From an uncultured SAR116 cluster alpha proteobacterium (GTDB lineage: Bacteria > Pseudomonadota > Alphaproteobacteria > Puniceispirillales > Puniceispirillaceae), in the NCBI GenBank assembly GCA_902518965.1, contig CABYIQ010000001.1, positions 1 to 64,000 on the forward strand: a stretch of 64,000 nt of DNA. Reading direction: 5' to 3'. Below, in pieces: positions 10,815-38,738 of this stretch. A program made the position numbers and the translations under genes. The stretch's first letter is position 1. Each line of letters begins with the position of its first letter. The notes under the pieces were generated by a model. It made no database searches. It was not told the origin of the DNA and worked only from the letters and a program-made list of their open reading frames with translations.

Positions 10815-10816
10815 AG

Positions 10817-11773: not shown

Positions 11774-11787
11774 GAGTGAAATAACCC

Positions 11788-13045: not shown

Positions 13046-13119
13046 TGATTTAGCGATTGACTTCAGATTAGGAGTGCCTTTATTTATGGACAATACTAAA
13101 AAATTAGGACAATTCGTCC

Positions 13120-15963: not shown

Positions 15964-16016
15964 ATTGAACCGTTCCTTGCGGCAGATTTAAATATTAATA
16001 GCTAAAAATAAAAGAA

Positions 16017-16045
16017 AATGGTCGGGAACACGTTTCCCGACCATT
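16017..16045 (-). terminator. Strong hairpin between substrate-binding protein and livM (intra-operon terminator/attenuator)
   Basis: AATGGTCGGGAA-CACGT-TTCCCGACCATT, perfect 12-bp stem, 5-nt loop, U-rich on minus-strand exit (TTTTCTTTTATTTTT) and plus side (GATTTTTTT). Confidence 0.75.
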
Positions 16046-16058
16046 GATTTTTTTATGT

Positions 16059-17276
16059 TTACTCAAGTCCGAAATCAGGCTCCATCGTTACACGAGCAAG
16101 AACTTCAGTTTCAAAGTTTTCACCACCCTTGGTGTAACCAATGAGCACAGCAGTACGGTTACCATCACGGCACTGTGGGGTTGGAGCAGCGCAAAAGCTG
16201 ATTGGGCCTGAGGCCAAACCTTCATAGCCCTCTACGCTCGCAATTGCATCACGTATAGCAGTACGGTCATTAGCAAGTGACCACTGTTCTAATTTCAGAT
16301 CGGCGTTGTTCAGCGCAATTTCCATAATCCGAACAAGGTCATAAGCCTGTGAGAAATCATGGTCTGGCGCATGAATGCCATAACGCTTACGGGTCATCTC
16401 GTTAAACAATTTAGCGATTGGGCGATTGTCGGCGGCAGCATAGGCAGCTGTGAAGAATACACCCTTAGCAGCGTCACCTGCAATCTTTGGAACTGGCGCG
16501 TTAGAAGCTGAAGACGAACCAATACGGCGCACATCTTCACTAATGCCTGCTTCATAAGACTGTATGAGTGCTCGAGCCATAGTTTCAGCAAGAGCCGCAA
16601 CTAAAATACCGTCAACATTCATGGACTTGATCTTCTGCATGTGGGAGCGAAAATCCACTTCTTTTTCTTGCACATCGGCTCGGTAAGCAGGGTCGACCCC
16701 AAAGCGAGCGCGCATTTGCTTTTCCATGTTTGCGCAGTCACCCACAGAGGCTGCGTCAGCAGCACATATATAGGCTATCTTTGTACCAATGTTCTCACCA
16801 ACATATTTTGCATTGACACCTCCGTAGTAACGGCCTGACACCGGAATACGGAATACCCATTCACTTCCCTTTTGTGTAATTTTAGAGTTAGTGGAATGCG
16901 GGATCATTTGCGGAACGCCAGCCTTGGCTGTCACGTCAACAATCGGCAAAGATACAGACGAGCATGTTGAGCCAATAAGAAGATGAATATTTTCCTGGAA
17001 AATTAACTTATTCGCGTTTGCTACGCCTTTGTCAGACTTACATTCGTCATTCATAAGCGTGGCTTTGATCATATTGCCGTTAATGCCGCCAGATTCATTG
17101 ATCGCTTTGATCTCATCCATCACCATCTGGCCGTATGCTTGACCATTTTCACTTACCATTCGCATTGTTATCCCAACACGAATGTCACCGGCAAAAGCAG
17201 CGGTGGCAGCAAGACCAACACCTGTAGCTACTAAACCGGCGAAAACTTTATTCATTAGCTTCATGTTTTCCTCCAT
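16059..17276 (-). CDS. LIV-type ABC transporter substrate-binding protein
   Basis: Signal peptide MNKVFAGLVATGVGLAATAAFA; IRVGITMRMVSENGQ...; between livH and livM. Confidence 0.88.
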   Translation of the reverse strand: MEENMKLMNKVFAGLVATGVGLAATAAFAGDIRVGITMRMVSENGQAYGQMVMDEIKAINESGGINGNMIKATLMNDECKSDKGVANANKLIFQENIHLLIGSTCSSVSLPIVDVTAKAGVPQMIPHSTNSKITQKGSEWVFRIPVSGRYYGGVNAKYVGENIGTKIAYICAADAASVGDCANMEKQMRARFGVDPAYRADVQEKEVDFRSHMQKIKSMNVDGILVAALAETMARALIQSYEAGISEDVRRIGSSSASNAPVPKIAGDAAKGVFFTAAYAAADNRPIAKLFNEMTRKRYGIHAPDHDFSQAYDLVRIMEIALNNADLKLEQWSLANDRTAIRDAIASVEGYEGLASGPISFCAAPTPQCRDGNRTAVLIGYTKGGENFETEVLARVTMEPDFGLE

Positions 17277-17317
17277 TTAATTTTGGGCTTTGCCCTTATT
17301 CATAGCGAAACTAACCG

Positions 17318-18229
17318 CTATGCCTTTACTTTTGCCTCAACCCCAAACAAGCCTGATGGCCTGAACATCAAAACTAGGATTAAAAGCAAAAATGCGTAAA
17401 TGTCTTTATGACTCGCTGAAATGTAAGCGGCACCAAGATTTTCAAAAATGCCAACCATGATGCCGCCAAGTATCGCACCAGGAAGCGAACCAAACCCGCC
17501 AACAACAGCGGCAGCAAACGCTTTCATTAACATTAAGTAACCCATTTCCACCTGCACTGATTGCATCGGGCCAATCAACACCCCAGCAGCAGCAGCAAGA
17601 CCGCAGGCAAGGCCAAAAATCAGTGAAATCATCAAGGGCACATTTATGCCCATTAGATAAGCTATGTCCTTGTTATGAGCAACCGCACGAACAGCTAGAC
17701 CAGTCTTTGTGTGCCGCAAAAAATAATGTAGTCCAGTCATTAGCAAAACTGAGATAATCGCTGTTAATACATAGCTTTCAGGAACATTGATATCTCCTGG
17801 AAAGGTTAACCGCGGTATGTAGTCAAGATTGGCTCGAAAGGGCTCTGCTTCTGCGCCAAAGAAAAAATAAGCAGCATTAACTAGAGCGACTGACATACCA
17901 AAACCGCAGATGATCATTCCCATACCGGCAACCGTATATCCACCACCGGCACGTGTAAGTCTTCGGTAGAAAACTCTTTCCACTGCCATCCCGAGTATGG
18001 CCGTAAGTATCATTGCGCCAATTAGTGCAACCGGGTAAGGCACACCAACATTGTGTGCGAGGACAAGCCCAAAAAAGGCACCAAACATATACATTTCACC
18101 ATGAGCGAAATGCACAATATCTAATCCAGAATAAATCAGCGAAATTCCAAGCGCCACAATTCCGTATACAACTCCAATGGTGACACCAAAAATAATGAAA
18201 GCCAGCAACGAGTTAAAATCAAATCCCAT
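17318..18229 (-). CDS. livH: Branched-chain-type ABC transporter permease (LivH)
   Basis: GISLIYSGLDIVHFAHGEMYMFGAF...AAAVVGGFGSLPGAILGG. Confidence 0.92.
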   Translation of the reverse strand: MGFDFNSLLAFIIFGVTIGVVYGIVALGISLIYSGLDIVHFAHGEMYMFGAFFGLVLAHNVGVPYPVALIGAMILTAILGMAVERVFYRRLTRAGGGYTVAGMGMIICGFGMSVALVNAAYFFFGAEAEPFRANLDYIPRLTFPGDINVPESYVLTAIISVLLMTGLHYFLRHTKTGLAVRAVAHNKDIAYLMGINVPLMISLIFGLACGLAAAAGVLIGPMQSVQVEMGYLMLMKAFAAAVVGGFGSLPGAILGGIMVGIFENLGAAYISASHKDIYAFLLLILVLMFRPSGLFGVEAKVKA

Positions 18230-18255
18230 AATTTTTAATCCCTATAATATGCTGC

Positions 18256-19005
18256 CTAATTCCTGAGAGCTTTTGTGGTGTCAGAGACTGAACCACCAAG
18301 GAACGATTCCTTGACTGCTGGGTCGCTAATGAGCTCTTTTGCTTCACCTTGCATCATAATCACTCCATCGCGAATAATATAACCATATTGGGCTAATATC
18401 AGTGCCATCCTGACATTCTGTTCAACAACCAAGATCGTCACACCAGATTTTGCGATCCGGTTAATATTAGCAAAAATCTCCAGAACCACTTTTGGAGCCA
18501 AAGCAGCGCTTGGCTCATCAAGCATAAGCATCTTTGGAGATGCCATTAGGCCGCGGCCAATTACCAACATTTGCACCTCACCACCGGACAGCGTACCAGA
18601 TAGCTGCTTTCGTCGCTCGCGAAGAACTGGAAAAAAATCATAAACCTTTTGAAGATCGGCCTTTGTGGCTTCACGGTCTTTACGTGTGTAAGCACCAAGA
18701 ACGAGATTTTCTTCGACTGTCATAGCCGGGTAGGCTTCTTTTGCTTGTGTTACCTGAACAAGGCCGAGGCGCATGCGCTCGTGGGGCTTCAATTTCGAAA
18801 CACTCACGCCATCAAAAGTGACCTCACCTTCCATCAGAGGGATTAATCCTGAAATAGCTTTGAGAAGAGTAGACTTGCCCGTGCCGTTCCCCCCTAGGAG
18901 GGCAACAATACCGCCAGTTTGCACTTTCATATCTATACCACGCAGGATTTTTAGGTTGCCATATCCCGCATGCACACCTTTGATTTCAAGCAATATTTCC
19001 CCCAC
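18256..19005 (-). CDS. livF: Branched-chain-type ABC transporter ATPase (LivF)
   Basis: GGNGTGKSTLLKAISGL, LSGGEVQMLVIGRGLMASPKMLMLDEPSAALAP. Confidence 0.92.
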   Translation of the reverse strand: MGEILLEIKGVHAGYGNLKILRGIDMKVQTGGIVALLGGNGTGKSTLLKAISGLIPLMEGEVTFDGVSVSKLKPHERMRLGLVQVTQAKEAYPAMTVEENLVLGAYTRKDREATKADLQKVYDFFPVLRERRKQLSGTLSGGEVQMLVIGRGLMASPKMLMLDEPSAALAPKVVLEIFANINRIAKSGVTILVVEQNVRMALILAQYGYIIRDGVIMMQGEAKELISDPAVKESFLGGSVSDTTKALRN

Positions 19006-19176: not shown

Positions 19177-20010
19177 TTAGAAAGCAGAGTTCATCCTTTG
19201 TATGATTTCCTCTATCATCTTTTCGGCTGGAGTCTTCCACCAACGGTCACGTGAAAAAATTTCGACTTCAACTGGGCCAAAATAGCCAGCTGCTTCCATC
19301 ATGTGGCGCCAGTCACAAAGCGCAATCTGGCCGTCGCCTGGCATTCCACGATCAAGCCGGAGGTCCCTTGTATCTGCAAGCCAATCGGAAACATGGTAAT
19401 TCAGAATACGATTACCAGCACGTTTCAACTTTTCCTGCAAATCATGTTCCCACCAAAGGGCATAGGTGTCGATGGCAAGGCCTATATCATGAGAATTATC
19501 CATTTGATCAAGAATATCGAGCGATTCTTGAAGAGTTGAGACAATTGACCGAAAGCCACAGACCATTGGGTGCAGGGGCTCAAAGGCCAGTCTGACACGA
19601 TAACTGTCAGCAAGCTCCGCTGCCAAAGCAAGCCGTTCAACTAATAAACTACGGGCATAATCAATATCACCATCGTGGCCTGCAGACTTCAGTGCTTCAA
19701 ATCCACCAGTAATGATCACAAGAGTTCGGGCACCAAACATATCCGAAAGATCAAGCTGCTCGCGAAGCAACGCTTCATCTTCGAAGAGGCATGCAACACA
19801 AAGAGACTCCGCCGTCATGCCAGCGCTATCCCATATCCGTTTGGCTTCGGAAATACCACAAGAGTTGATCATTGGCGTCCATAGCGCGGTTCTTTTGATG
19901 CCTGCATTTCGAAGCACTGCTAGTGAATTAGCGAAATCACATTGGCCTGAAAGTGTCACTTGATGCACGCAAAGATCATCAAGCTGCAGCTGACGAAGTG
20001 CGCTTACCAT
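19177..20010 (-). CDS. Sugar phosphate isomerase/epimerase (AP-endonuclease-like TIM barrel)
   Basis: VRLAFEPLHPMVCG...LAIDTYALWWEHDL...PGDGQIALCDWRHMMEAAGYFGPVEVEIF. Confidence 0.8.
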   Translation of the reverse strand: MVSALRQLQLDDLCVHQVTLSGQCDFANSLAVLRNAGIKRTALWTPMINSCGISEAKRIWDSAGMTAESLCVACLFEDEALLREQLDLSDMFGARTLVIITGGFEALKSAGHDGDIDYARSLLVERLALAAELADSYRVRLAFEPLHPMVCGFRSIVSTLQESLDILDQMDNSHDIGLAIDTYALWWEHDLQEKLKRAGNRILNYHVSDWLADTRDLRLDRGMPGDGQIALCDWRHMMEAAGYFGPVEVEIFSRDRWWKTPAEKMIEEIIQRMNSAF

Positions 20011-20792
20011 GTGGCTCTCCCGCCAGTCACATCAAAAATTTGACCGGTGGTAAAACTACATGCTGGAGAAGCAATAAACGCTGCTACACTGGCAATCTCT
20101 TCAGGTGTGCATAGACGCCCCATGGGGATCCGGCTTTTCTTATCTGCAATATATTCTGCGCTCATCTCATCAAGCAAGTCCGTCATTGCCATCGAAGGCG
20201 CAATACAATTTACCGTAATTTCTGATGGTAGCAATTCACGCGCCAGCCCCTTCGCAAGTCCTATGACGCCGGCTTTTGCTGCGCCATAGGGCACAGCACC
20301 TGGGTTACCTTCCTTTCCTGCAATAGAGGAAATAATGATAATCCGGCCTCGTTCTTGTTCCCTCAAATGACCAAGAGCGGCCTGCACAGTCAGAAACACC
20401 CCTGTCAGATCAACCGACATCACCATTTGCCATTCTGACAGCGAATAATCCCACAACGGTTTTGTTGGCCCATTCACCCCAGCATTTGCAATAACGCCAT
20501 CGATATTACCAAGAGCTGAGAGGCTGGCAGCGAACCCCTCCTTTGTCTGCAATGGGTTGGTAACATCAACAATCTGACTGTCAGCAAAAACCGGATTGTT
20601 CCTCATACCAGCATCATCGAGATCCCAACCAGAAACCTTTGCCCCTAGACTGTTAAAAAGCGAACTGATTGCTAAACCAATGCCTTTGGCTGCACCAGTT
20701 ACAATGAAGTTTTGACCGGCAATATCGACCAGACTTTTCAATTTGATCTCCCCATTTTGTGTTCCACTAGTGATTAGTTGTTCGGCACCCAT
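20004..20792 (-). CDS. Short-chain dehydrogenase/reductase
   Basis: TGAAKGIGLAISSLF, YGAAKAGVIGLAKGLARE, C-terminal FDVTGGRATW. Confidence 0.9.
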   Translation of the reverse strand: MGAEQLITSGTQNGEIKLKSLVDIAGQNFIVTGAAKGIGLAISSLFNSLGAKVSGWDLDDAGMRNNPVFADSQIVDVTNPLQTKEGFAASLSALGNIDGVIANAGVNGPTKPLWDYSLSEWQMVMSVDLTGVFLTVQAALGHLREQERGRIIIISSIAGKEGNPGAVPYGAAKAGVIGLAKGLARELLPSEITVNCIAPSMAMTDLLDEMSAEYIADKKSRIPMGRLCTPEEIASVAAFIASPACSFTTGQIFDVTGGRATW

Positions 20793-21205
20793 TGAAGAAT
20801 ATGGCTGGCAACCGCGACAAGCTCATCATTCTGATTCGTAACCTCAATACCAGCTGTCGACCGGCGCCGCACAACATCGATTTCGCTTACGGTATATGCG
20901 ACGGTAATCGTATCACCCAGGAAGACTGGCTTTAAAAATCTAACCTTGTCATACCCAACTGAGACCGGAGTTTCTTCTGCCTCACGACTATGAGCAATTA
21001 TCTGGGTCGAGACTGTAGACATAAATCCAACGATTAGAGCACCATGTGCCATCAACCGACCATAACTAGATTTTTCCATGTAAGCTTTATTGACATGGTT
21101 TGGTGAAAAATCACCTGTAATACCTGCAAACTGGTACACATCACTTTCTGAGACCGTCTTGGTGAAGCTAGTGGCATCGCCAATTTTTAGATAGAAATCC
21201 GTCAT
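20774..21205 (-). CDS. MaoC-like (R)-enoyl-CoA hydratase/dehydratase
   Basis: VYQFAGITGDFSPNHVNKAYMEKSSYGRLMAHGALIVGF hotdog hydratase-2 motif. Confidence 0.88.
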   Translation of the reverse strand: MTDFYLKIGDATSFTKTVSESDVYQFAGITGDFSPNHVNKAYMEKSSYGRLMAHGALIVGFMSTVSTQIIAHSREAEETPVSVGYDKVRFLKPVFLGDTITVAYTVSEIDVVRRRSTAGIEVTNQNDELVAVASHILQWVPNN

Positions 21206-21227
21206 ATTAGTTCCTCCTAAATTTCAT

Positions 21228-22268
21228 TTAATTTGAGAGTTGAATGCGCTTTCCACCCGTCGCTGCGCGCGCAGCTGCGAGAGTCGCATCAAGTGATCGG
21301 CTCCCATTTAGCGCATCGACAATAGGTGTTTCATAGCCGCGTGCAACAGCCCGCAAATGTTCGCACTGCGCCACATAGGCATCGATGAATGGGGCCTCAA
21401 TCACTTCAGGCACGATCTCCTGATGCCAGTCACCATTATTATCGGAATGTTTCCACAGCACCAGATTCGGAAATTCTAGCGCACCCTGGACACCCAAAAA
21501 GCGCATGCTATTCATGCCTGTCTTTGGAAATTTTACACTTTCACCAAGCGCCATTTCCCAGGTCCAGGGGGACGGCGTTCGATCCGAAAGCAAAAAACTT
21601 CCAACCGCCTGATTGGCAAATTTCAAGCTTATTGCAACCGCATCTTCCTTCTCAAAATTTTGATCATGATTAGTCATCTCAGCAGACACTGACGCGATGT
21701 CACCACATATAAAACGCAAGAGATCAATTTCATGAATTAAGTTGGTCAAAATTGGGCCAGCCTCGAAATTACGGCGCCACGCTGGAGCAAAATAGTCTTC
21801 ATCCTTGCGCGTTGTCCATTGACCACTTACCGCCATCAGCCTGCCGATGCGGCCGTTTTGAATAATATCTCGTGCTATTTGCGCGCAAGGGTAATATCGT
21901 CTCTGATGGCCAACAAGAACTTGGCATCCCTGTTCAGCTGCATAGTGAGTCACCTCGTCAGCCTCTTTCGTGGTCGCAGTAATCGGCTTTTCAACCAATA
22001 CCGTCTTGCGATACTTGAGAGCCATCATCAAATCAGCATGGTGACGCTCCGTTGGGGTGGCAATGATAACTGCATCAACATCTGTCTTTGAGAGCATGCT
22101 CTCAGCATCAGTAAAAGCCTCAAGGCCGCGAGATTCCGCAAGCTTTGCTGCTGCAGGCGCTGGGTCTGCAATAGCTACAAGCTCCATCAGCGCCAACTCA
22201 TCAATGGCCTTAATATGCCTCGTGCCAATCGAACCAGCACCAATCAGCCCAATTCTGAATACATCCAT
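21228..22268 (-). CDS. Gfo/Idh/MocA-family oxidoreductase
   Basis: FRIGLIGAGSIGTRHIKAI...VLVEKPIT...HEIDLLRFICGDI. Confidence 0.88.
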   Translation of the reverse strand: MDVFRIGLIGAGSIGTRHIKAIDELALMELVAIADPAPAAAKLAESRGLEAFTDAESMLSKTDVDAVIIATPTERHHADLMMALKYRKTVLVEKPITATTKEADEVTHYAAEQGCQVLVGHQRRYYPCAQIARDIIQNGRIGRLMAVSGQWTTRKDEDYFAPAWRRNFEAGPILTNLIHEIDLLRFICGDIASVSAEMTNHDQNFEKEDAVAISLKFANQAVGSFLLSDRTPSPWTWEMALGESVKFPKTGMNSMRFLGVQGALEFPNLVLWKHSDNNGDWHQEIVPEVIEAPFIDAYVAQCEHLRAVARGYETPIVDALNGSRSLDATLAAARAATGGKRIQLSN

Positions 22269-22285
22269 TGACGGTCCCCACTACA

Positions 22286-23815
22286 TCATTTTTTAAAATA
22301 ATTACTGTCCATTTCAGACAGAGGTGAATTCATGTTTGGTACAAACCCCATTCGGTCAAGCAGATCTGTTTGCAAGTCAATTCCTGGAGCGATCTCAATT
22401 ATGTGCAAGCCATCTTCGCGCAACTCAAAAACCGCGCGCTCAGTAATGTAAATAACTTTCTGACCCTGCAATAATGATTGGGGACCTGAAAAGGTTATCT
22501 GGTCGACCTTATCGACCAGCTTAGGGATCCGCCCATGCTCTGTCACTCGCATGACGCCAGAACCCACCTCAGTGCGGGCGCCACCTGTATCAAAAGTGCC
22601 GCAAAACACCACCTTGCGTGCGTTTTGGGCAATATCAATAAAACCACCCGGCCCAACGGTATTGCCACCGAGCTTGGAAACATTGACATTGCCGACAGCG
22701 TCTATCTCACCAAAACCAAGAAAGGCTATGTCCAGTCCACCGCCCGAATAAAAATCAAACTGCGAAGGGCCGTCGATCATACAACTTGGATTCATAGCAT
22801 ATCCAAACAGATCTCCATCCATTAACCTGCCGCCATAGGTGCCATGCTCAATAGTCTGAAAATATCGCGCCGATTTGCCGTCATGGTCGATCAACTTGGC
22901 AATCTGATCGGGAATACCAAAGCCAAAATTTATCACAGCATTATCATAAAGCTCCTGTTGCGCGCGGCGTGCTATGACCAAACGTGATGAAAACAACGGC
23001 TCAGGTTGAGCAAAACCCTCTCTACGTTTCTGACCAGACAACGCTGCGTCATAGACCACTTCGTAGCCCTGCTGCTGTGTTTCATCAACAACAACAGCAT
23101 CGACCAGCGCTCCCGGAATACGCACTTCGCGTGCCTTCATGCTATAGCGTGGTACCATTCCCCGTACCTGGAAAATTACTTTTCCACCACTGTTATGTGC
23201 CGCGGCGGCTATCGCATAAATGTCAAGATTAGCCGGCTCTTCCTCCAATGAAATATTACCCTCTTCATCAGCGTAACTACCACGAAGAAGTGCTACCGTT
23301 ACTGGAATTGGCAGATAGCGTAAATAATCTCTACCCTCTATAGTTATAATTTCCGTCAGATTTTGCTTTGCAGCCTCGTTCATGCGTCCACCATCTAGCC
23401 GCGGATCAACAAAGGTACCAAGCCCAACATGGGTGATTAACCCAGGACGACCAGCGGCTACCTCGCGCATCAATTGCATGATCACCCCGCCAGGCAGCAC
23501 ATAAGCCTCAATATCGTTATTCCGCGCCATCTGCTGCATCCGTGGTGACCACACCCAATGCCCTCCAATCACACGGCTGGTCATGCCTACATGAGCAAAT
23601 CGGTTCATGCCGCGCTCCTGCCTATCGCCGATACCAAGCGCATGAATGCAGGTTAAATTTCGAGGATGGCCCGTCTCAAGAAAACTTCGCTCCACAGCAG
23701 CATGTAGTGCGCTCGCCTCAACCAAACCGCCACCGCCACCAGCAAGACCAATCGTATCACCATCCTTAACCATGGCTGCAGCTTCGTCCGCAGAAAGGAA
23801 TTTTACCTTTGTCAT
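22286..23815 (-). CDS. Acyl CoA:acetate/3-ketoacid CoA-transferase (fused alpha-beta)
   Basis: DTIGLAGGGGGLVEAS...NFGFGIPDQIAKLI...TIEHGTYGG family I CoA-transferase features. Confidence 0.88.
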   Translation of the reverse strand: MTKVKFLSADEAAAMVKDGDTIGLAGGGGGLVEASALHAAVERSFLETGHPRNLTCIHALGIGDRQERGMNRFAHVGMTSRVIGGHWVWSPRMQQMARNNDIEAYVLPGGVIMQLMREVAAGRPGLITHVGLGTFVDPRLDGGRMNEAAKQNLTEIITIEGRDYLRYLPIPVTVALLRGSYADEEGNISLEEEPANLDIYAIAAAAHNSGGKVIFQVRGMVPRYSMKAREVRIPGALVDAVVVDETQQQGYEVVYDAALSGQKRREGFAQPEPLFSSRLVIARRAQQELYDNAVINFGFGIPDQIAKLIDHDGKSARYFQTIEHGTYGGRLMDGDLFGYAMNPSCMIDGPSQFDFYSGGGLDIAFLGFGEIDAVGNVNVSKLGGNTVGPGGFIDIAQNARKVVFCGTFDTGGARTEVGSGVMRVTEHGRIPKLVDKVDQITFSGPQSLLQGQKVIYITERAVFELREDGLHIIEIAPGIDLQTDLLDRMGFVPNMNSPLSEMDSNYFKK

Positions 23816-24993
23816 CTTGCTTGTTCATAGATGTCGAAAAGGCCGACATCCCCCTTCATCATCTGTCGCGCCATAACCATACGGTGAATTTCTGAAGTTC
23901 CGTCATATATCCGCGCGATGCGCGCATCTCTGTAATAACGCTCAATCGGCAAATCACAGCAATATCCAGCCCCACCATAGATTTGAACCGCTCGGTCAAC
24001 AACCCGCCCAAGCATTTCTGAAGCCTGCACTTTTAGCATCGATATCGCACCCCGCGCCTCTTCTCCAGCATCAATACGGCTTGCCGTCTGCCAGAGAGCC
24101 AGTCGGCAAGCGTTGATCTCCATCGCCGAGTCGGCAAGCATATGCTGGATCATCTGGAATTCCCCAATTGGTGAGCCAAATTGCCTCCTATCCTTAGAAT
24201 AACGAAGACAGCTATCGAGGATCATGCTGCTCCTGCCCACGGCTCGTGCGGACACCTGCGCTAACCGCACACGACCAAGAGTTGCTAGCGCCAACTTTAA
24301 ACCTTGTCCCTCCTTCCCAAGAAGGGAGCCTTCATTAAGTTTCACATTCTCGAAGTGCAGTTCTACGTGTGAAGTACCCTTTAGCCCCATCATCGGCTGA
24401 TCTCGACCAACGGTGAACCCTGCAAGCCCCTTGTCGAGAATAAATGTGGAAATTCCACGCGCACCTGCATCCGGGTTCGTGACTGCGGTAACAATGAAGA
24501 AGTCAGAATACAAACCATCCGAGATGAAATGCTTAGAACCGTTCAGCACCCAACCGTCATTCTTTCGGACTGCTCTAGTTTTTATAGCAGCAGCATCAGA
24601 CCCTGCCTCAGGTTCAGTGAAGGCTACAGAAAAGGTTCGCTCACCACGAACCGCAGGAATTAGATATGTCTCGATCTGCGCGTCAGTGCCTTCTAGCAAA
24701 ATTTCGTAAACATTGCCGAAGGCACGGCGAACCAAAATGTCACTAGTGCGGCCAAACTGTTCTTCGGCGATCATCCAGTCCAAGACCGATAGACCACCAC
24801 CGCCGTATTTAGTTGGAATATTAACTGCATAAAGACCGAGTTCCCGGGATTTAGCGCGGATCTCAGAGGCCACATCATCAGCAAGCCGACCTGTCTTTTC
24901 GATGTCTTCTTCTAACGGTCGTAACTCAGACTCAATGAAACCTCGGATGCTAGAAACAAGCAGATGCTGCTCCTCAGACAAAGAAAAATCCAT
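23812..24993 (-). CDS. Acyl-CoA dehydrogenase
   Basis: SVAFTEPEAGSDAAAIKTRA...WVLNGSKHFIS...RQFGSPIGEFQMIQHMLAD...GGAGYCCDLPIERYYRDARI.RIYDGTSEIHR. Confidence 0.92.
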   Translation of the reverse strand: MDFSLSEEQHLLVSSIRGFIESELRPLEEDIEKTGRLADDVASEIRAKSRELGLYAVNIPTKYGGGGLSVLDWMIAEEQFGRTSDILVRRAFGNVYEILLEGTDAQIETYLIPAVRGERTFSVAFTEPEAGSDAAAIKTRAVRKNDGWVLNGSKHFISDGLYSDFFIVTAVTNPDAGARGISTFILDKGLAGFTVGRDQPMMGLKGTSHVELHFENVKLNEGSLLGKEGQGLKLALATLGRVRLAQVSARAVGRSSMILDSCLRYSKDRRQFGSPIGEFQMIQHMLADSAMEINACRLALWQTASRIDAGEEARGAISMLKVQASEMLGRVVDRAVQIYGGAGYCCDLPIERYYRDARIARIYDGTSEIHRMVMARQMMKGDVGLFDIYEQAR

Positions 24994-25778
24994 TAAAAAT
25001 ACCCCTTTGTCGCGCCACCATCTACAGCAATGCCAGCACCATGTATATGGCGCGCCTCATTACTGCAGAGGAATGCAACAAGCGCTGCAGTATCCTCTGG
25101 TTGTCCAAGACGGCGAATGCCTTCGGCCTGCATACGCTCAGCTCGGACATCATCGACACTCCGATTCTCATCACGCGCCCGTGTCTCAAGAAGCTGTTGC
25201 AAGCGCTCGGTCTCAGTCTGGCCCGGATTAATCCAATTCACATTTACATCATCTTGAAGGCCTTGACCCGCTAGTGCCTTGCTGAAATTTGCAAGCGCCG
25301 CATTGACTGCACCACCAACCATAAATTTAGAATCGGGAGTGCGCGACGCGCCACCCACAATCATCACCACATTACCGCGCGCGGCAACAAGCGACGGCCA
25401 GAAGAGGCGTGACAGCCGGACCCCGGCATGGAATTTAAGCGCAAAACCATCAATGAAATCAGTATCGTCTTGGTCAGGGAATACACCACCCTTAGTCGCG
25501 CCTGCGCTGTGAACTAAAATATCACAAGAATTAAACGCTTTACTTTGCGCGTCGAACACAGCCTGGCACCCTTCAAGTGTTCGCAGGTCGGCAGCATAGC
25601 TCTCAACCCGGCCGCCAGAATTGGGAGCAATTCTCTTAACCGCTGCATCGCAATTGGATTGACTGCTGCCAGTAACCATAACACCTGCGCCTTCTCTTGC
25701 TAAACGCTCAGCGATTGCAAGCCCAATGCCCCTCGTTCCACCAGACACAAAGGCAGTCTTTCCTGTCAATAAACCCAT
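24993..25778 (-). CDS. Short-chain dehydrogenase/reductase
   Basis: FVSGGTRGIGLAIAERLAREGA; HGAGIAVDGGATKGYF; catalytic Tyr region atypical (MVGGAVNAALANFSKAL). Confidence 0.82.
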   Translation of the reverse strand: MGLLTGKTAFVSGGTRGIGLAIAERLAREGAGVMVTGSSQSNCDAAVKRIAPNSGGRVESYAADLRTLEGCQAVFDAQSKAFNSCDILVHSAGATKGGVFPDQDDTDFIDGFALKFHAGVRLSRLFWPSLVAARGNVVMIVGGASRTPDSKFMVGGAVNAALANFSKALAGQGLQDDVNVNWINPGQTETERLQQLLETRARDENRSVDDVRAERMQAEGIRRLGQPEDTAALVAFLCSNEARHIHGAGIAVDGGATKGYF

Positions 25779-25781
25779 TTT

Positions 25782-26780
25782 TTATCCTCCCTCGCGGTCG
25801 TATGAGCCGACATAATGTGTTTCAATACCCTTCACAAACCCATAAAGACTACGCAATGTTGGAACAGCGAGACCAGCCTCGTCAGCAAGCTGCAGTGGCA
25901 CGCCATAAATAAATTCGACTTCGCTAGGCCGGCGCGCCAACACATCCAAACAAAGAGAAGATTTGTTGTCACCGGTGCCACCCGGTGCTGTCATTAACTC
26001 AAGTCCTTTTACCACCACGTCGCGGTCAAGATTAATATCTTGAGAGCGCGCAATTGAAATTGCCTCGTCGAGCGCGGCATAACAGACCTTGCGAAGTGGA
26101 TCCAGTCTCAGGATTTCAACACTAGTCAGATTAGTTACTCCAGAGACAGCACTCATCGCCATATTGCCAATAAGCTTTTTCCAGATGTCCATTCTGATGT
26201 CAGCACTTGCATATGTCTCCAAACCGGCCGCCGTAAATGCAGCGGCGACCGCTTCAGCGCGCACTGAATTGCCGCCACCCCATTCACCAATGTAGGAAGG
26301 CACTCGGTCAAAATCGCGGACCTGCCCAGGACCTGTTTGAGCGCCAGCCATCGAGGTCAACCCGCCCAAGACATTCTCAAGACCAAGAACGTCCGCAAGA
26401 ACATCCTCGTTGCCTAGGCCATTCTGAAAACTTATAAAAACGGCACCTGCATCTGCAAGATGCGTCATAGCAAGCGCTGCCTGATGGGTTGCTGTTCCTT
26501 TACATTGTACAAGCACAATATCAGTTTGCTCAATCTGTTTAACGTCATGTGTTGCCTTCAGCATGAGCCGCCTGTTGTCGCCATATCCAGAGACCAGAAG
26601 TCCATTCTTTTGAATTGCATCGATGTGTTCGCGATTAGTATCCACAAGCGTTACTTCGAGACCCCCTTCAGAGAGGATTGCGCCAAACAGGGCCCCCATA
26701 CCACCAGCACCAATGACGGTCACATGATGAATTTGTTTTGTCATGTCATCTTCCCTTTCTGGACGAGCTAGTTCACTCAA
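25782..26780 (-). CDS. 2-dehydropantoate 2-reductase-like (ApbA/PanE family)
   Basis: VTVIGAGGMGALFGAILSEGGLEVTLVD...QNGLGNEDVLADVLG...WKKLIGNMAMSAVSGVTN. Confidence 0.85.
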   Translation of the reverse strand: MSELARPEREDDMTKQIHHVTVIGAGGMGALFGAILSEGGLEVTLVDTNREHIDAIQKNGLLVSGYGDNRRLMLKATHDVKQIEQTDIVLVQCKGTATHQAALAMTHLADAGAVFISFQNGLGNEDVLADVLGLENVLGGLTSMAGAQTGPGQVRDFDRVPSYIGEWGGGNSVRAEAVAAAFTAAGLETYASADIRMDIWKKLIGNMAMSAVSGVTNLTSVEILRLDPLRKVCYAALDEAISIARSQDINLDRDVVVKGLELMTAPGGTGDNKSSLCLDVLARRPSEVEFIYGVPLQLADEAGLAVPTLRSLYGFVKGIETHYVGSYDREGG

Positions 26781-27226
26781 GCCCCTTCTCTTTTTCGCAA
26801 GAGACGATGCACAGCATTAAGCCCCAAGTAAAAGGAGTCTGCACCAAACCCAACAACGCTGCCATCGCTGACTCCTGCTGTAAGGCTCACCTGCCTGAAT
26901 TTTTCTCGACTATCGTTGTTCGATAGATGCACCTCGACCTTAGGGCCATCAAACATTGCCAGCGCATCACGAAGTGCTATCGAAGTGTGCGTATAGGCAG
27001 CCAAGTTGAACAGAATCGACGTGGCTTTATCGCGCGCCTCCTGAATCGCAGTTACGAGAACTCCCTCTTCATTCGATTGTGTGATTTCTATACTCCGGCC
27101 TAGCCGCTCAGCTTCAACAGCAAGCTCTTTCAAAATATCAGCCATGCTATCTGCACCATAAATTTCCGGTTCACGTGTCCCGAGCAAATTCAGGTTGGGC
27201 CCAAAGATGACCAGTATATCAACCAT
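26777..27226 (-). CDS. aroQ: Type II 3-dehydroquinate dehydratase
   Basis: ILVIFGPNLNLLGTREPEIYG...QSNEEG...FNLAAYTHTSIALRDAL...VEVHLSNNDSREKFRQ. Confidence 0.95.
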   Translation of the reverse strand: MVDILVIFGPNLNLLGTREPEIYGADSMADILKELAVEAERLGRSIEITQSNEEGVLVTAIQEARDKATSILFNLAAYTHTSIALRDALAMFDGPKVEVHLSNNDSREKFRQVSLTAGVSDGSVVGFGADSFYLGLNAVHRLLRKREGA

Positions 27227-27255
27227 TTTACTTTTATCCCCACTTTGTATTCGGA

Positions 27256-28056
27256 TTATTCGAATGTTACTTTTATCTCGCCAAGCTCACCAAAATTAGC
27301 GTGTACATAATCTCCAGCTGAAAAGGGTTGTGGCACCGATGCAGCGCCCGTAGAGATAAAATCTCCTATCTGCAATTCGTAGCCACGCGACGCCAAATGA
27401 TTAACAAGATCGGCAGCGGCTTGCTCCGGAACGCAACGCATTTCCCCAAGGAAATTGTCAGCAGGCGTGCCATCACTCACCGTAAGTTCAATCGGATGCT
27501 GTCGATAATCTACCCCCTGCCAATCTTCTACAGGGTCGCCGAATATAAAACCTATGCCGCCACCATTGTCCGCAATTGTCATAAGCGAATTTTCTGCCTT
27601 TTTGGCATCTTCTAGTTTAAAGCGGTTACCAATAATCTCTATCGCTGGATGAAGCACCATCATGGTTTCCATCTCAGAGGCAGTCCAAGGCTTCTGGCGA
27701 AGATGCGGTTTGGCAGTCAGCTGGAAGGCGAATTCAGCCTCGGCTCGAGCACTGGGAAAATATTTAATTGGCAGGTTATGATAAACTCCAAAATAACTTC
27801 TGGACTGAAATATGCGGCCAGGAATTACATCCTCATGACCGTCAAGCTCACGCATTCTTGCGCTAGTCGCGCCAACCTTCCAACCAACCATGTCCTGTTG
27901 GAGCACCTCATACATACAATCCTGGACAAAATAGGCCTCTACTCGATTGAGTGGAAAAAAACGAGAATCAACATTGGCCAAGTTTCCTGGATCACGCCAT
28001 GAATTCGCCAGCATATTAGCTAACTCGACTAGTACGGGCTTACGCGTTTTTTCCAT
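27256..28056 (-). CDS. 2-keto-4-pentenoate hydratase-like (FAH superfamily)
   Basis: MVGWKVGATS...AEAEFAFQLTAKP...HPAIEIIGNRF...LASRGYELQIGDFISTGAASVPQPFSAGDYVHANFGELGEIKVTF. Confidence 0.85.
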   Translation of the reverse strand: MEKTRKPVLVELANMLANSWRDPGNLANVDSRFFPLNRVEAYFVQDCMYEVLQQDMVGWKVGATSARMRELDGHEDVIPGRIFQSRSYFGVYHNLPIKYFPSARAEAEFAFQLTAKPHLRQKPWTASEMETMMVLHPAIEIIGNRFKLEDAKKAENSLMTIADNGGGIGFIFGDPVEDWQGVDYRQHPIELTVSDGTPADNFLGEMRCVPEQAAADLVNHLASRGYELQIGDFISTGAASVPQPFSAGDYVHANFGELGEIKVTFE

Positions 28057-28182
28057 CTATTTACCTCCTCAACAACCTAAATGGCTGTCGATAGTAAACT
28101 TCAAACTTACAGGCAATGTTTTAAGCTAGAAAGAGCAAATATGATGAAATAACCTCATGAGGAAATATTCGCTTACAAATCA

Positions 28183-29217
28183 TCAAATGTTGTGTGCTAA
28201 AGGCAAGTTTTCTGAAGTATAAAATTGAAAATCAATATTTGCCGTATTTGTTTGAGTGACATATCCGTACTGTCTAGCAATAAAATCTACCGCCCCAAAA
28301 GCTTGTTGCATAGGATTTGAGTCAATCACCATGTCAATGAGACCAGACCTTAAATGCTCTTCAGAATAAGGGCTGAGATCATGTACAATCTTTGCCATTG
28401 ATTTGACGGATTTTTCGTATTGGCCGGACTCGATAAGGGCCTCTAATAGTTCATTGTTTGCTGGCCCATAGAGCACACGAAAATCATCTTGTTCACTGAG
28501 TGAAGCCAACAATTCCGATGCTGCGCCCTCATTAGTGGCCGGAGGCGTAAATAACTTTAGCTTATGCTCAATGCCCCTTTCCGAGAAAAATTCGCAAAAG
28601 CCCGTGAAACGATCCAAATTTGAACGTGCGCTTGTGCCAGGTTCAACAACGAGAATACGCCCCCCCTTTCGACAAATAGCTTCGCTAAGCTTTGCTGCCG
28701 AACGGCCAGCGTTGACATTGTTTATCCCAACATAACAATGTCTGCCACTCTCAGAGATATCAGTGCTAATCGTGACCATGAATGTCTTGTCGACTAAATC
28801 CCTAATTGCTTTTGCAATGACCGGAAGATCGCTTGCGAAAAGAATAATTCCGTCACGACGTTCAGCTGTAGCGTAAAGATGTGACACCAAACGGTCTGGG
28901 TCATCCGCGTCAAAATGTGACCTATAAATAGTGACTGGATAATCAACATGTTTGTTTACCGCTGTGAGGGACAAATTCAGCCGTTTTGAGTAAGCGGTTG
29001 CGTTGCGAGCAAACACTGCTTCAATCAAAAGCTGCCTCTGGTTACCAGTAGGCAGAATACGTTTACTTCCAAGTTGCCGCGCGCTCTCAAGAACACGATT
29101 AATTGTTTTTTGGCTAACGCCCCCGCGTTCATTAAGCACTCTGTCCACAGTTGCAAGGCCAACGCTTGCATGTTTTGCAATATCCTGAAGCCGCGCCTTT
29201 TTCGAATGCTTTTTCAT
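28183..29217 (-). CDS. LacI-family transcriptional regulator
   Basis: RLQDIAKHASVGLATVDRVLNERGGVSQKTINRVLESARQLG HTH plus periplasmic-binding-like sensor. Confidence 0.9.
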   Translation of the reverse strand: MKKHSKKARLQDIAKHASVGLATVDRVLNERGGVSQKTINRVLESARQLGSKRILPTGNQRQLLIEAVFARNATAYSKRLNLSLTAVNKHVDYPVTIYRSHFDADDPDRLVSHLYATAERRDGIILFASDLPVIAKAIRDLVDKTFMVTISTDISESGRHCYVGINNVNAGRSAAKLSEAICRKGGRILVVEPGTSARSNLDRFTGFCEFFSERGIEHKLKLFTPPATNEGAASELLASLSEQDDFRVLYGPANNELLEALIESGQYEKSVKSMAKIVHDLSPYSEEHLRSGLIDMVIDSNPMQQAFGAVDFIARQYGYVTQTNTANIDFQFYTSENLPLAHNI

Positions 29218-29783: not shown

Positions 29784-31322
29784 ATGTCAGCTGCATTAGG
29801 CCCGCAAAAACACCGGCCAATTCATTTTATGCTCAACGGAGAGGCGCATGAAATTGAAAGACTACGCCCTGATACAACCCTACTGCAATTGCTGCGCGGT
29901 CCGCATAGCCTGACCGGCACAAAAGAGGGTTGTGCTGAGGGCGACTGCGGGGCTTGCACGGTTATGGTGGGACGGTTGCGAGCAGACCGGCTAATTTGGC
30001 AACCTGTAAACGCTTGCATACTGCTGCTCCCAATGGCTGATAAATCTGTCATCCGAACAGTTGAGGGTGTTGCAAAGGAAGACGGCACCCTACACCCGGT
30101 TCAACAGGCGATGGTAGACAATCACGGCTCACAATGCGGTTTCTGTACACCAGGTTTTGTGATGTCGTTATATGGTGGCTGGCTGAACAGATCCTCTTTT
30201 AGCGCCTCTGATCTTGATGATTTGCTTGCAGGAAATCTTTGTCGCTGTACTGGATATGGCCCGATTATTAAAGCTGGCCAATCACTGGCAGGACAACCTC
30301 TTGCTGAGTGGGAAACAGTTCGACTAGATAAAGAAAAAGCCTATTTAGACTCGTGCGAGGCTATGCCGGAGCTGTTCTATGCGGCAGAGGGGGCCTCCTA
30401 TATAGCTCCTTGTTCAAAAGATAGCTTCGCACAAGCCTATATAGAACAGCCTGAGGCACAGATTATCGCCGGGGCAACAGATATCGGCTTATGGATCACT
30501 AAGCAAAATAGGAAATTGCCTGCATTTATATCTGTTCAGGATGTGGATGGGCTGGATGATGTAACAGAGCAAAAGGACGGCTTTTATATTGGCGCCGCCG
30601 CTACACATCATAAAGCAGCTGATTTTCTGGCGGCACATTTTCCATCTTTAAAGGAATTATGGCGACGTTTTGGTTCAGTCCAAGTAAGGGCAAGTGGCAC
30701 GGTAGGCGGCAATATTGCCAATGGCTCTCCAATTGGTGACCTGGCACCTGCCTTCATTGCTCTGGATACCGACCTGCTTCTTCGACGGGGAAAAGAAGAG
30801 CGAAGGCTGAAACTAGAAGATTTCTTTTTGTCTTACGGTCAGCAGGACCGGCAACAAAGTGAATGGGTGGATGGCCTGTTTATTCCGAAATTATCAACGA
30901 ATTGGAAATTCAATTGTTACAAACTTTCCCGCAGGTTTGACCAAGACATTTCAGCCGTAATGGGAGCTTTTGCTCTGAAAATAGAGGACGGCAAGATTAC
31001 AGCTGCACGAATAGCCTTTGGGGGCATGGCCGGTGTTCCGCAACGCGCCCGCTCACTTGAAACAGCTCTTATTGGACAGGCTTTGGAGCCAGACAAGATA
31101 AATGAACCTAAAATCGATTCAGCCCTGGCAGATGATTTCACCCCGATAAGTGATGTCAGAGCCTCAGCAGAGTATCGATTGCTTGGCGCCCGCAATCTCT
31201 TACAGAAATGCCTTTTGGAAATGATAGCAGACAAGCCTGTAAGACTGGCAGGAGAGGGACTAGCATCGGCAGGGTTGTCCTTCTTGTGCAGCAACGCCTC
31301 CAGCGAGGCCAGACAACAATGA
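29784..31322 (+). CDS. xdhA: Xanthine dehydrogenase small subunit (2Fe-2S + FAD)
   Basis: GTKEGCAEGDCGACTVMVG, GSQCGFCTPGFVMSLYGGW, GNLCRCTGYGPII; FAD domain GSVQVRASGTVGGNIANGSPIGDLAPA. Confidence 0.95.
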   Translation: MSAALGPQKHRPIHFMLNGEAHEIERLRPDTTLLQLLRGPHSLTGTKEGCAEGDCGACTVMVGRLRADRLIWQPVNACILLLPMADKSVIRTVEGVAKEDGTLHPVQQAMVDNHGSQCGFCTPGFVMSLYGGWLNRSSFSASDLDDLLAGNLCRCTGYGPIIKAGQSLAGQPLAEWETVRLDKEKAYLDSCEAMPELFYAAEGASYIAPCSKDSFAQAYIEQPEAQIIAGATDIGLWITKQNRKLPAFISVQDVDGLDDVTEQKDGFYIGAAATHHKAADFLAAHFPSLKELWRRFGSVQVRASGTVGGNIANGSPIGDLAPAFIALDTDLLLRRGKEERRLKLEDFFLSYGQQDRQQSEWVDGLFIPKLSTNWKFNCYKLSRRFDQDISAVMGAFALKIEDGKITAARIAFGGMAGVPQRARSLETALIGQALEPDKINEPKIDSALADDFTPISDVRASAEYRLLGARNLLQKCLLEMIADKPVRLAGEGLASAGLSFLCSNASSEARQQ

Positions 31323-33637
31323 CCCCGCCTGCACAATCCACGCTTGTCCACGCAGCCCTGCGCCACGAAAGTGCCGCCCTTCATGTCACTGGGCAAGCTC
31401 GCTATGTAGATGATATGGCCCTACCAGAAAACTCTGTACATATTGCACTTGGGTTAAGTGATGTTGCGCATGGCCAGCTAATCTCAATTAATACTGAAAC
31501 TGCTTTGCGCATGCCAGGTGTACGGGCAGTGCTTACAGCAGCTGATATTCCCGAAAAAAACGACTGCAGCCCGGTAAAAGGTGATGACCCTATATTTGCC
31601 AAAGATGAGATTATGTATCACGGACAGACGCTATTCGCGGTAGTTGCTGATACACGAGCACAAGCCAGAGACGCAGTAGAACAGGTGAAGACTAAAATTA
31701 CACCGCTTGCCCCTATCTTAAGCATCGATGCAGCTATTGAGCAGGAAAGTTTTCTTGAAAAACCGCTGACTCTATCATCAGGACAGGTAGAAAATGCCTA
31801 TGCGGCAGCCCCCTACCAGCTGGCAGGAGAGCTGTATGCCGGTGGTCAAGAGCATTTTTATCTGGAAGGCCAGGCCGCCATTGCCCAAGCAGATGAAAAT
31901 GGAGGCATTCAGTTATTTGTATCTACACAGCATCCAAGTGAAATTCAGCATAAGGTTGCTGGCATGTTGGGGCTAACTTATGGTGATATTCAGGTTGATG
32001 TCAGACGGATGGGCGGAGGCTTTGGTGGCAAGGAAAGCCAGAGCAATCTAACCGCCTGCATTGCTGCACTTGCTGCTCATAAAACAGGGCGCCCAGCCCG
32101 CCTTGTCTATGACCGAGATGATGACATGCGGGTCACAGGTAAGCGCCATGATATTAAGTTGGTCTATAAAGTTGGCTTTGATCAGGATGGGCGATTGATC
32201 GCGCTAATTATTGACCAGTATCTGCGATGTGGAATGTCTTACGATCTGTCAAAGGCTATTGCCATCCGGGCGATGACACACGCTGAAAATGCCTACGCCA
32301 TCCCTCACACCCGCATTACCGCCCATTTATGCAAGACACATACCCCTTCGAATACAGCATTTAGGGGATTTGGCGGCCCACAGGGCATGATCGGTATCGA
32401 ACAGATCATGGATAAAATCGCTACTCATCTGAACATGGATCCAATCGCCCTCAGACAGCTGAATTACTATCCTGATTATGAGGCCGGCACGCCGTGCTGC
32501 ACACCCTATGGCCAGGTTGTCAAAGATGGGCTGCTTGGAAAGATAACAAAACAGCTCCTAGAAACCGCTGATTATCAAAACAGACGACAACAGATCGACA
32601 CCTACAACCAGACTAATCCGGTGCTAAGACGTGGCCTAGGGTTTGCGCCAGTTAAATTTGGAATCTCCTTTAACAGAACCATGTTGAATCAAGCTGGCGC
32701 TCTTGTTCATGTCTATTCAGATGGCTCAGTGCACCTCAATCATGGCGGCACTGAGATGGGCCAAGGGCTGCATACAAAGATCATCCAAATTGTAGCTGAC
32801 GTGTTTGGACTAGCACATGAAGATGTCCGAATTTCAGCCACGACCACAGGCAAAGTGCCAAACACATCTGCCACAGCGGCTTCATCCGGAACTGACCTGA
32901 ACGGGATGGCTGCTGCACGCGCAGCTGATGCCATCAAACAGCGCATGACCGCCCATCTAGCTGAGCTTTATCAGTGTGAAGCGGATAGGATTACTTTTCA
33001 GGATAGACAGGTCAACCTGCCTTCTGGTGAATATCTATCTTTTTCTAAAGCCGTCGGATTATGTTATGAGGGACGGGTCTCGCTCTCTGCAACAGGCTTT
33101 TATGCTACACCTGATATCCATTGGGATGATGCCAGCCTGACCGGCTCACCCTATTATTATTTTGCTTATGGTGCCGCATTATGTGAGGTCGCGATTGACA
33201 GGCTAACAGGTGAGTCTCGAATCCTACGCACAGATATTCTTCATGATGCTGGGCGTTCCATTAATCCAGCGCTTGATAAGGGCCAAATTGAAGGCGGGTT
33301 TGTTCAAGGCGCTGGCTGGCTGACCACTGAGGAACTTGTCTACGGACAGGATGGGGCGTTGCTGACGCATGCGCCATCCACCTATAAAATTCCAGCTTGT
33401 TCAGACAGACCTTATCTTCTCAACATCAACCTTTATGAAGGGGACGGTAATCGTTCAGAGACCATTCACAGATCAAAAGCTGTTGGTGAGCCTCCTTTCA
33501 TGCTTGGAATATCTGTTTTTCTTGCCTGCGGGGATGCACTGAGAGGCCTGAGCTCAACAAAAAGCTACCCTGATCTGCACGCGCCCGCTACTGCAGAACG
33601 TCTATTGATGGCTGCACAGGCGCAGCAAAAATTATGA
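31319..33637 (+). CDS. xdhB: Xanthine dehydrogenase molybdopterin-binding subunit
   Basis: RRMGGGFGGKESQ, NTAFRGFGGPQGM, GGTEMGQGLHTKI; ATGA overlap with xdhA (track start at 31208 too far upstream). Confidence 0.95.
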   Translation: MTPPAQSTLVHAALRHESAALHVTGQARYVDDMALPENSVHIALGLSDVAHGQLISINTETALRMPGVRAVLTAADIPEKNDCSPVKGDDPIFAKDEIMYHGQTLFAVVADTRAQARDAVEQVKTKITPLAPILSIDAAIEQESFLEKPLTLSSGQVENAYAAAPYQLAGELYAGGQEHFYLEGQAAIAQADENGGIQLFVSTQHPSEIQHKVAGMLGLTYGDIQVDVRRMGGGFGGKESQSNLTACIAALAAHKTGRPARLVYDRDDDMRVTGKRHDIKLVYKVGFDQDGRLIALIIDQYLRCGMSYDLSKAIAIRAMTHAENAYAIPHTRITAHLCKTHTPSNTAFRGFGGPQGMIGIEQIMDKIATHLNMDPIALRQLNYYPDYEAGTPCCTPYGQVVKDGLLGKITKQLLETADYQNRRQQIDTYNQTNPVLRRGLGFAPVKFGISFNRTMLNQAGALVHVYSDGSVHLNHGGTEMGQGLHTKIIQIVADVFGLAHEDVRISATTTGKVPNTSATAASSGTDLNGMAAARAADAIKQRMTAHLAELYQCEADRITFQDRQVNLPSGEYLSFSKAVGLCYEGRVSLSATGFYATPDIHWDDASLTGSPYYYFAYGAALCEVAIDRLTGESRILRTDILHDAGRSINPALDKGQIEGGFVQGAGWLTTEELVYGQDGALLTHAPSTYKIPACSDRPYLLNINLYEGDGNRSETIHRSKAVGEPPFMLGISVFLACGDALRGLSSTKSYPDLHAPATAERLLMAAQAQQKL

Positions 33638-36103: not shown

Positions 36104-36121
36104 AAGACCAGCCAATCCATC

Positions 36122-36150
36122 AAAACAGCCTGCATTAAGCAGGCTGTTTT
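36122..36150 (-). terminator. Strong hairpin between substrate-binding protein and ATPase genes (intra-operon terminator/attenuator)
   Basis: AAAACAGCCTGC-ATTAA-GCAGGCTGTTTT, perfect 12-bp stem, 5-nt loop; T-run lies within the stem and is bidirectional. Confidence 0.7.
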
Positions 36151-36160
36151 GATGTTATTT

Positions 36161-37879: not shown

Positions 37880-37882
37880 AGG

Positions 37883-38707: not shown

Positions 38708-38738
38708 ATGTTTATTATGTCTTGTCTATCTATTTTAT

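Follow-up and report, generated by a model that had tools for sequence, protein, structure and literature searches.

The 64,000-nucleotide stretch of DNA analysed here (the window) is the first part of contig CABYIQ010000001.1 from an uncultured SAR116 alphaproteobacterium, and between positions 19177 and 29217 it carries ten minus-strand genes and a LacI regulator gene, in which a type II 3-dehydroquinate dehydratase (AroQ) lies among a CoA-transferase, an acyl-CoA dehydrogenase (ACAD) and a MaoC-type hydratase. An earlier note, made from the sequence alone, had described this region as a candidate catabolic operon of ten genes and a regulator that combines AroQ with these CoA enzymes. The open reading frames of the ten genes and of LacI were confirmed at their coordinates, together with the overlaps between neighbours (20004/20010, 20774/20792, 23812/23815, 24993/24993 and 26777/26780), and domain calls with Pfam and NCBIfam profiles match the family labels given to all of them, so that every core enzyme can be assigned to a superfamily from its sequence. 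As set out below, the operon is real and conserved; its size was underestimated and AroQ is an accessory part of it. The unit is read here, with somewhat better than even confidence, as a catabolic unit for a hydroaromatic acid, with a CoA-thioester stage ahead of the route that leads from 3-dehydroquinate (DHQ) through 3-dehydroshikimate (DHS) to protocatechuate. Its genes, from the regulator downward, are as follows.

28183 to 29217, minus strand: LacI-family regulator with LacI HTH and Peripla_BP_4 domains (domain calls).
27256 to 28056, minus strand: protein of the FAH superfamily, only remotely related to 2-keto-4-pentenoate hydratases (hydratase motifs kept).
26777 to 27226, minus strand: AroQ, type II DHQ dehydratase, the second copy in the genome (profile, residues, tree).
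25782 to 26780, minus strand: PanE/ApbA-family oxidoreductase, ketopantoate-reductase-like (profiles).
24993 to 25778, minus strand: SDR1, a short-chain dehydrogenase fold without catalytic Tyr/Lys (profiles, alignment).
23812 to 24993, minus strand: ACAD, with Asp364 replacing the catalytic Glu (profiles, alignment).
22286 to 23815, minus strand: YdiF-type family I CoA-transferase, catalytic Glu323 kept (profiles, alignment).
21228 to 22268, minus strand: Gfo/Idh/MocA dehydrogenase, inositol-2-dehydrogenase-like (profiles, alignment).
20774 to 21205, minus strand: MaoC-type (R)-hydratase, Asp/His dyad kept (profiles, alignment).
20004 to 20792, minus strand: SDR2, FabG-like dehydrogenase, catalytic residues intact (profiles, alignment).
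19177 to 20010, minus strand: TIM, an AP_endonuc_2 TIM-barrel isomerase, metal ligands kept (profile, alignment).
18256 to 19005, minus strand: LivF-type ABC ATPase of the conserved unit (gene order).
17318 to 18229, minus strand: LivH-type ABC permease (gene order).
16059 to 17276, minus strand: LIV-type substrate-binding protein (profile, gene order).
14878 to 15963, minus strand: ABC transporter subunit in the LivM position (gene order).
14100 to 14900, minus strand: ABC transporter subunit in the LivG position (gene order).
13120 to 14022, plus strand: LysR-family regulator between the transporter and the lig genes (same place before ligA in genome G077).
7030 to 13093, minus strand: protocatechuate 4,5-cleavage (lig-type) genes (profiles; conserved beside the operon in G077).
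5146 to 7020, minus strand: QuiC, two-domain DHS dehydratase (profiles, alignment).

The same gene order recurs in other SAR116 genomes, which places the arrangement far beyond chance. Homologues of the CoA-transferase (E < 1e-100) are found in 14 of 136 genomes of the order, 13 of them at 73-100% identity and one at 40%. The full order, running from LacI through FAH, AroQ, PanE, SDR1, ACAD, CoA-transferase, Gfo, MaoC, SDR2 and TIM to LivF, LivH, the binding protein and two ABC subunits, is present in loci L035, L039, L040, L041 and L056 (L040 and L039 recur as L048 and L050 in named records). Locus L033 agrees with this order starting at FAH, with no LacI at that place; LacI lies upstream of FAH in most SAR116 loci and was not found in L033 or L067. 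The five ABC-transporter genes at 14100-19005 are part of the conserved unit, and QuiC or lig genes stand beside the operon in several different arrangements: in L035 and L040 QuiC is the neighbour of the transporter, in L041 an MFS gene, LysR and lig come after it, and the window has the order QuiC-lig-LysR-transporter. The transporter and the protocatechuate genes are therefore part of the wider picture, and the ten genes first delimited are too small a frame. The conserved neighbourhood that the earlier note had named as a check is thus present, in other lineages as well as in SAR116. Among 43 high-quality genomes of the order, a QuiC match occurs in all five that have this CoA-transferase and in 9 of the 38 that do not (p ~0.002, hypergeometric with kinship ignored; one of the 14 QuiC matches is to the HPPD-like domain only).

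QuiC itself is a full-length two-domain protein with lig-type genes following it. It scores 503 bits against P. putida QuiC1 (PDB 5hmq), and its Glu/Asp/Gln/Glu metal ligands and active-site His, residues whose roles are taken here to be those familiar from the family, are conserved in the alignment; its score against the NF042435 equivalog profile is below the cut-off (574 vs 1200 bits). LigK and LigU are above their curated cut-offs, LigB is above that for class III extradiol dioxygenase beta subunits, and LigA is recognisable just below its equivalog cut-off. In genome G072 (L040/L048), the QuiC beside the operon is shortened, keeping the dehydratase domain and missing most of the HPPD-like domain.

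The window AroQ scores above the cut-off of Pfam PF01220 and of NF003806 (180 bits, cut-off 171) and below that of the TIGR01088 equivalog (158 vs 170), and its residues N11, R18, Y23, N74, H80, E98, H100 and R111, the known active-site residues of AroQ, are invariant in the alignment. AroQ is encoded twice in the genome, and the other gene (G000:C4:45059-45481) is followed by genes for a biotin carboxyl carrier protein and a biotin carboxylase (accB/accC, products assigned by eye). This setting is common for housekeeping copies, and the gene is probably one. The window AroQ as the biosynthetic copy is ruled out by this second AroQ beside accB/accC, in agreement with the earlier note. Two AroQs are present in nearly every operon-bearing SAR116 genome checked, and all 11 AroQs from SAR116 operons fall into one clade (92/90) of a maximum-likelihood tree, apart from the housekeeping copies. 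The operon AroQ of the alphaproteobacterium G340 groups with a different alphaproteobacterial set in this tree, and since the SAR116 and G340 copies sit in different groups, AroQ has been recruited at least two times.

AroQ is nevertheless an accessory of the operon and not its core. In loci L042, L051, L055, L058 and L064, FAH stands directly beside PanE with no AroQ between them, and AroQ as the heart of the operon is ruled out by its absence from several operons of the clade. That AroQ can be dispensed with also favours the main rival explanation, a modular island: its CoA genes would break down a separate open-chain hydroxy or keto acid in a manner resembling beta-oxidation, with AroQ, QuiC and the lig genes as neighbours serving ordinary quinate or shikimate use. 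On the evidence of the wider family this arrangement is judged the less likely of the two.

Further loci were obtained from one scan of a genome collection and several whole-genome searches. In a CoA-transferase tree, 36 rows with at least 57% identity to the window protein form a clade (support 99/96) that comprises SAR116, SAR324, SAR202/Dehalococcoidia, two gammaproteobacterial metagenome-assembled genomes (MAGs; from Mycale sponges, judged by isolate names only) and several other alphaproteobacteria, and that includes Shinella and Bosea plasmids and Azoarcus sp. KH32C. The operon genes are reshuffled in SAR324, SAR202, the other alphaproteobacteria and the gammaproteobacterial MAGs, and a crotonase is present in the SAR324, G119 and G340 versions. 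A gene of DHQ, DHS or shikimate type lies within 12 kb at 22 of the 36 clade loci, compared with 1 of 9 rows outside the clade (E. coli ydi only). The recruited sets differ: AroE, AroQ and QuiC in G340; AroE and AroQ in G511; AroE and QuiC in G260; AroQ and QuiC in SAR116. Beyond SAR116, the clade CoA-transferase stands beside AroE with AroQ and/or QuiC in L097, L098, L101 and L112, and beside AroE in a Hyphomicrobiaceae MAG, Shinella, Bosea, G417 and G496, the gene on the Shinella and Bosea plasmids being annotated as shikimate dehydrogenase. SAR324 and the two gammaproteobacterial MAGs instead carry a second AroB (343-350 bits, cut-off 305), accompanied by genes for a PRISE-type protein, a histidine phosphatase and an AroD of type I. 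The two types of DHQ dehydratase (I and II) have unrelated folds and are not homologous, so the recurring feature is the reaction from DHQ to DHS and not one travelling gene.

The tie to the DHQ/DHS-to-protocatechuate route that had been proposed for the window thus recurs independently in other lineages, and, as judged from gene neighbourhoods, the link of the operon to DHQ/DHS chemistry is well supported. A merely modular island sits poorly with the recruitment of shikimate-type enzymes of different families beside this clade in several lineages, and with their interleaving in the operon itself, AroQ lying between FAH and PanE and an AroE-AroQ pair straight after Gfo. It is favoured by the more distant CoA-transferases, which adjoin TIM, SDR and hydratase genes and no shikimate-type gene.

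In SAR324 and the two gammaproteobacterial MAGs, where a second true AroB stands with AroD, PRISE-type protein and phosphatase next to the CoA genes, the set is what would be expected of a biosynthetic cluster. In such a cluster, DHQ/DHS from AroB and AroD (or AroQ) would be reduced and turned into a CoA ester of cyclohexane type that goes into a product, along the lines proposed for cyclohexanecarboxyl-CoA starter units. For the SAR116 unit this is unlikely, as it includes a LacI regulator, an ABC transporter of importer type, QuiC and lig genes and has neither an AroB nor a biosynthetic megasynthase beside it. Within the AroB block (L089-L092), the gammaproteobacterial MAGs have phosphatase and AroB joined in one protein, and the AroD of L090 is broken into two frames. 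SAR202 AroB frames of ~550-590 amino acids were considered as the same phosphatase-AroB fusion; this is not supported, identity to that fusion being only 33-35%, and they are suspected instead to join a shikimate kinase to AroB.

Catalytic residues are retained in nearly all of the operon enzymes, as seen in alignments. The CoA-transferase is of the YdiF/FadX type, a fused two-domain chain that aligns over its full length with YdiF (2ahu, 435 bits), and its Glu323 is invariant within a clade-specific IEHGTYGG motif. The Asp/His dyad of MaoC, the E/D/H/E ligands of the TIM barrel and the EKP motif of Gfo are likewise kept, and the Ser-Tyr-Lys of SDR2 is intact in the window copy, some relatives having Ala in place of the Ser. 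No Pfam match was obtained for the FAH protein, and its scores against NCBIfam hydratases are 45-57 bits (best 57, cut-off 351); despite these sub-cut-off scores it keeps the catalytic motifs of the vinylpyruvate-hydratase branch. In SDR1 the nucleotide-binding motif is kept, but every orthologue examined, from SAR116 to SAR324 and G340, is missing the catalytic Tyr and Lys; it may be no ordinary dehydrogenase.

The ACAD, of short-chain type by domain call, has Asp364 at a position occupied by Glu in five PDB relatives; this Asp is constant in 9/9 orthologues, compared with Gly at this position in E. coli YdiO. Against the cyclohexane-1-carbonyl-CoA dehydrogenase model it scores 233 bits (cut-off 650). 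Acyl-CoA dehydrogenases usually have a catalytic Glu, and the Tyr before it is replaced by a smaller residue in enzymes for alpha-substituted substrates such as cyclohexane-1-carbonyl-CoA (PMC11659651). The Tyr preceding the base is kept in the present family (Phe in L060). By these residues the active site appears altered, though not in the way published for alpha-substituted substrates.

In the catabolic pathway proposed here, whose substrate, order of steps, individual CoA-enzyme reactions and point of CoA release are all putative, the LIV-type ABC transporter would import the acid and the YdiF-type CoA-transferase, with its catalytic Glu present, would put CoA on the ring carboxylate. The ACAD, with Asp as its base, would then dehydrogenate the ring carbons next to the thioester, MaoC would add or remove water, and SDR2, Gfo/Idh, PanE and the TIM barrel or barrels would oxidise and isomerise the ring hydroxyls. 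The CoA would be handed to the next acid and the ring would join the DHQ/DHS pool, so that the CoA half may feed this pool. From there AroQ would convert DHQ to DHS, QuiC would convert DHS to protocatechuate and the lig enzymes would open the ring, steps that are expected from family knowledge and for which the active-site residues of AroQ and QuiC are present. The candidate substrate would be a hydroxylated cyclohexane- or cyclohexene-carboxylic acid of the quinate, shikimate or dihydroshikimate kind. That AroE replaces or joins AroQ in relatives suggests that shikimate or quinate is also an entry point. An AroE-type quinate/shikimate dehydrogenase was not found in the window; one AroE-type match is present elsewhere in its genome (76% complete) and one in the complete G077 genome, and an extra AroE is present in G119 and other alphaproteobacterial relatives. 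Dihydroshikimate is, according to a reference given in PMC10558750, a known bacterial product, formed when lactic acid bacteria reduce quinic acid. It would be the simplest substrate to need an ACAD ahead of shikimate or DHS, and it leaves FAH, PanE, SDR1 and MaoC unexplained.

Several observations weigh against a hydroaromatic substrate for the CoA half. The usual substrates of the core FAH, PanE and HIBADH-like families are open-chain 2-keto or hydroxy acids, which also suits the modular island, as do the likeness of the CoA-transferase and ACAD to short-chain enzymes above all, and a LacI regulator and TIM/Gfo genes that would fit sugar-like substrates. Domain calls reveal no BadI-like ring hydrolase and no CoA ligase in the operon, and the retained Tyr of the ACAD departs from the pattern of cyclohexane-1-carbonyl-CoA dehydrogenases. 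In the SAR324 and gammaproteobacterial versions the AroB is more in keeping with a synthetic than with a catabolic role, and no DHQ/DHS gene lies nearby in clade members SAR324 L103-L106, SAR202 L057/L061/L062, L064 and Azoarcus KH32C L162, some of these contigs being short.

A different way of joining CoA and quinate enzymes in one operon had been suggested in the earlier note, namely that a conjugate ester such as a hydroxycinnamoyl quinate is cleaved, with the side chain shortened by the CoA enzymes and the ring acid taken by AroQ and QuiC. The CoA-transferase, ACAD, MaoC and SDR could indeed make up a beta-oxidation round; yet neither the operon nor its relatives have an esterase, thiolase, feruloyl-CoA synthetase or hydroxybenzoate hydroxylase, and Gfo, TIM, PanE and FAH are left without a part, making this the most improbable of the explanations.

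Compared with known systems, the operon is a new combination relative to both qui/qsu and bad-ali. To our knowledge, the quinate/shikimate route includes no CoA-transferase, ACAD, MaoC, FAH or PanE. The resemblance to qui/qsu systems (P. putida QuiC1, C. glutamicum qsu, R. jostii RHA1) lies in a DHQ dehydratase and a two-domain DHS dehydratase beside protocatechuate ring-cleavage genes, and the difference in the lack of a recognisable AroE-type quinate/shikimate dehydrogenase in the window operon. In R. jostii the DHS dehydratase gene adjoins an extra DHQ dehydratase (PMC10558750). With the bad-ali pathway for cyclohexane carboxylate the operon shares CoA activation, an ACAD, hydration and oxidation by a dehydrogenase, but bad-ali uses the CoA ligase AliA, the hydratase BadK and the ring hydrolase BadI (PMC9795900), none of which was found by domain calls in the window operon; the latter has a CoA-transferase and MaoC, with Gfo, PanE, TIM, FAH and AroQ in addition. 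The ThnP/ThnO pair is likewise a CoA-transferase and an ACAD acting on cyclohexane carboxyl-CoA (cyclohexane dicarboxylic acid); it differs in its Cat1-like intramolecular CoA-transferase, its anaerobic naphthalene pathway and the ordinary catalytic Glu of ThnO (PMC11659651). No published account of an operon of this kind was found in a literature search that covered CoA-dependent quinate/shikimate routes, ydiF/ydiO, gut enzymes converting quinate to cyclohexanecarboxylate and hydroaromatics in SAR116 and SAR324, and outside which most subscription journals lay.

E. coli K-12 has ydiN, ydiB (quinate/shikimate dehydrogenase), aroD, ydiF (CoA-transferase) and ydiO (acyl-CoA dehydrogenase) in a row. 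YdiF and YdiO are 42% and 30% identical to the window proteins, YdiF falls outside the clade on a long branch, and the aroD of this cluster is the biosynthetic enzyme; by these comparisons the ydi cluster appears to be a parallel and not a member of the clade. A broader notion, advanced tentatively and more doubtful than the reading of the SAR116 unit itself, is that bacteria of several phyla handle hydroaromatic acids by an undescribed pathway that depends on CoA thioesters and recruits shikimate-type enzymes in a modular way, and that ydiB-aroD-ydiF-ydiO is a distant version of it. If the catabolic reading is right, the uncultured ocean bacteria SAR116, SAR324 and SAR202 would share a route that takes ring-shaped hydroxy acids via CoA thioesters into the DHQ/DHS and protocatechuate pool, adding an entry to marine organic-carbon turnover and giving functions to ~10 orphan enzymes, and there would be a testable idea of why E. 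coli keeps a quinate/shikimate dehydrogenase, a DHQ dehydratase, a CoA-transferase and an acyl-CoA dehydrogenase adjacent. In another E. coli record (CP054241, L166, 7556-13605), an SDR, a TIM isomerase, an enoyl-CoA hydratase, a CoA-transferase (51% to that of the window) and a fumarate-reductase-like flavoprotein lie between ytfB and rplI, apparently on a piece of chromosome, even though the record is filed as a plasmid.

Two further genes of the window probably belong to the same system, as judged from the positions of their orthologues.

59002 to 59928, minus strand: HIBADH/threonate-dehydrogenase-like enzyme (orthologues adjoin the operon elsewhere; family match of an orthologue).
58115 to 58978, minus strand: TIM2, a second AP_endonuc_2 TIM barrel (orthologues adjoin the operon elsewhere).

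This pair (58115-59928) is 64% and 70% identical to operon-adjacent orthologues elsewhere, which adjoin LacI-FAH in L048, L050 and L056, ACAD in L052/L053, FAH in SAR324 L103/L105/L106, and QuiC with an extra AroE-like gene in G119. No PDB relative of TIM2 was found by sequence. The extra AroE-type gene of G119, a SAR116 genome (L157, 16111-16896), stands beside both the HIBADH/TIM2 pair and QuiC, and is below all curated shikimate dehydrogenase cut-offs.

Among minor features, promoter-like sites are no commoner than in shuffled sequence, and a perfect 12-bp hairpin with T-rich tails lies at 16017-16045, in the gap separating the binding-protein gene from the ABC gene that follows it, a place where higher expression of the binding protein could be set. 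Elsewhere in the window, 29784-40199 holds a purine/ureide catabolism block with xanthine dehydrogenase subunits and XdhC, a nitrate/taurine-type ABC transporter, a ureidoglycine aminohydrolase and an allantoinase fused to an OHCU decarboxylase, and 52606-57257 holds a cluster of sugar-acid type with an IlvD/EDD dehydratase, an FAA hydrolase, and HIBADH-like and 2-hydroxyacid dehydrogenases.

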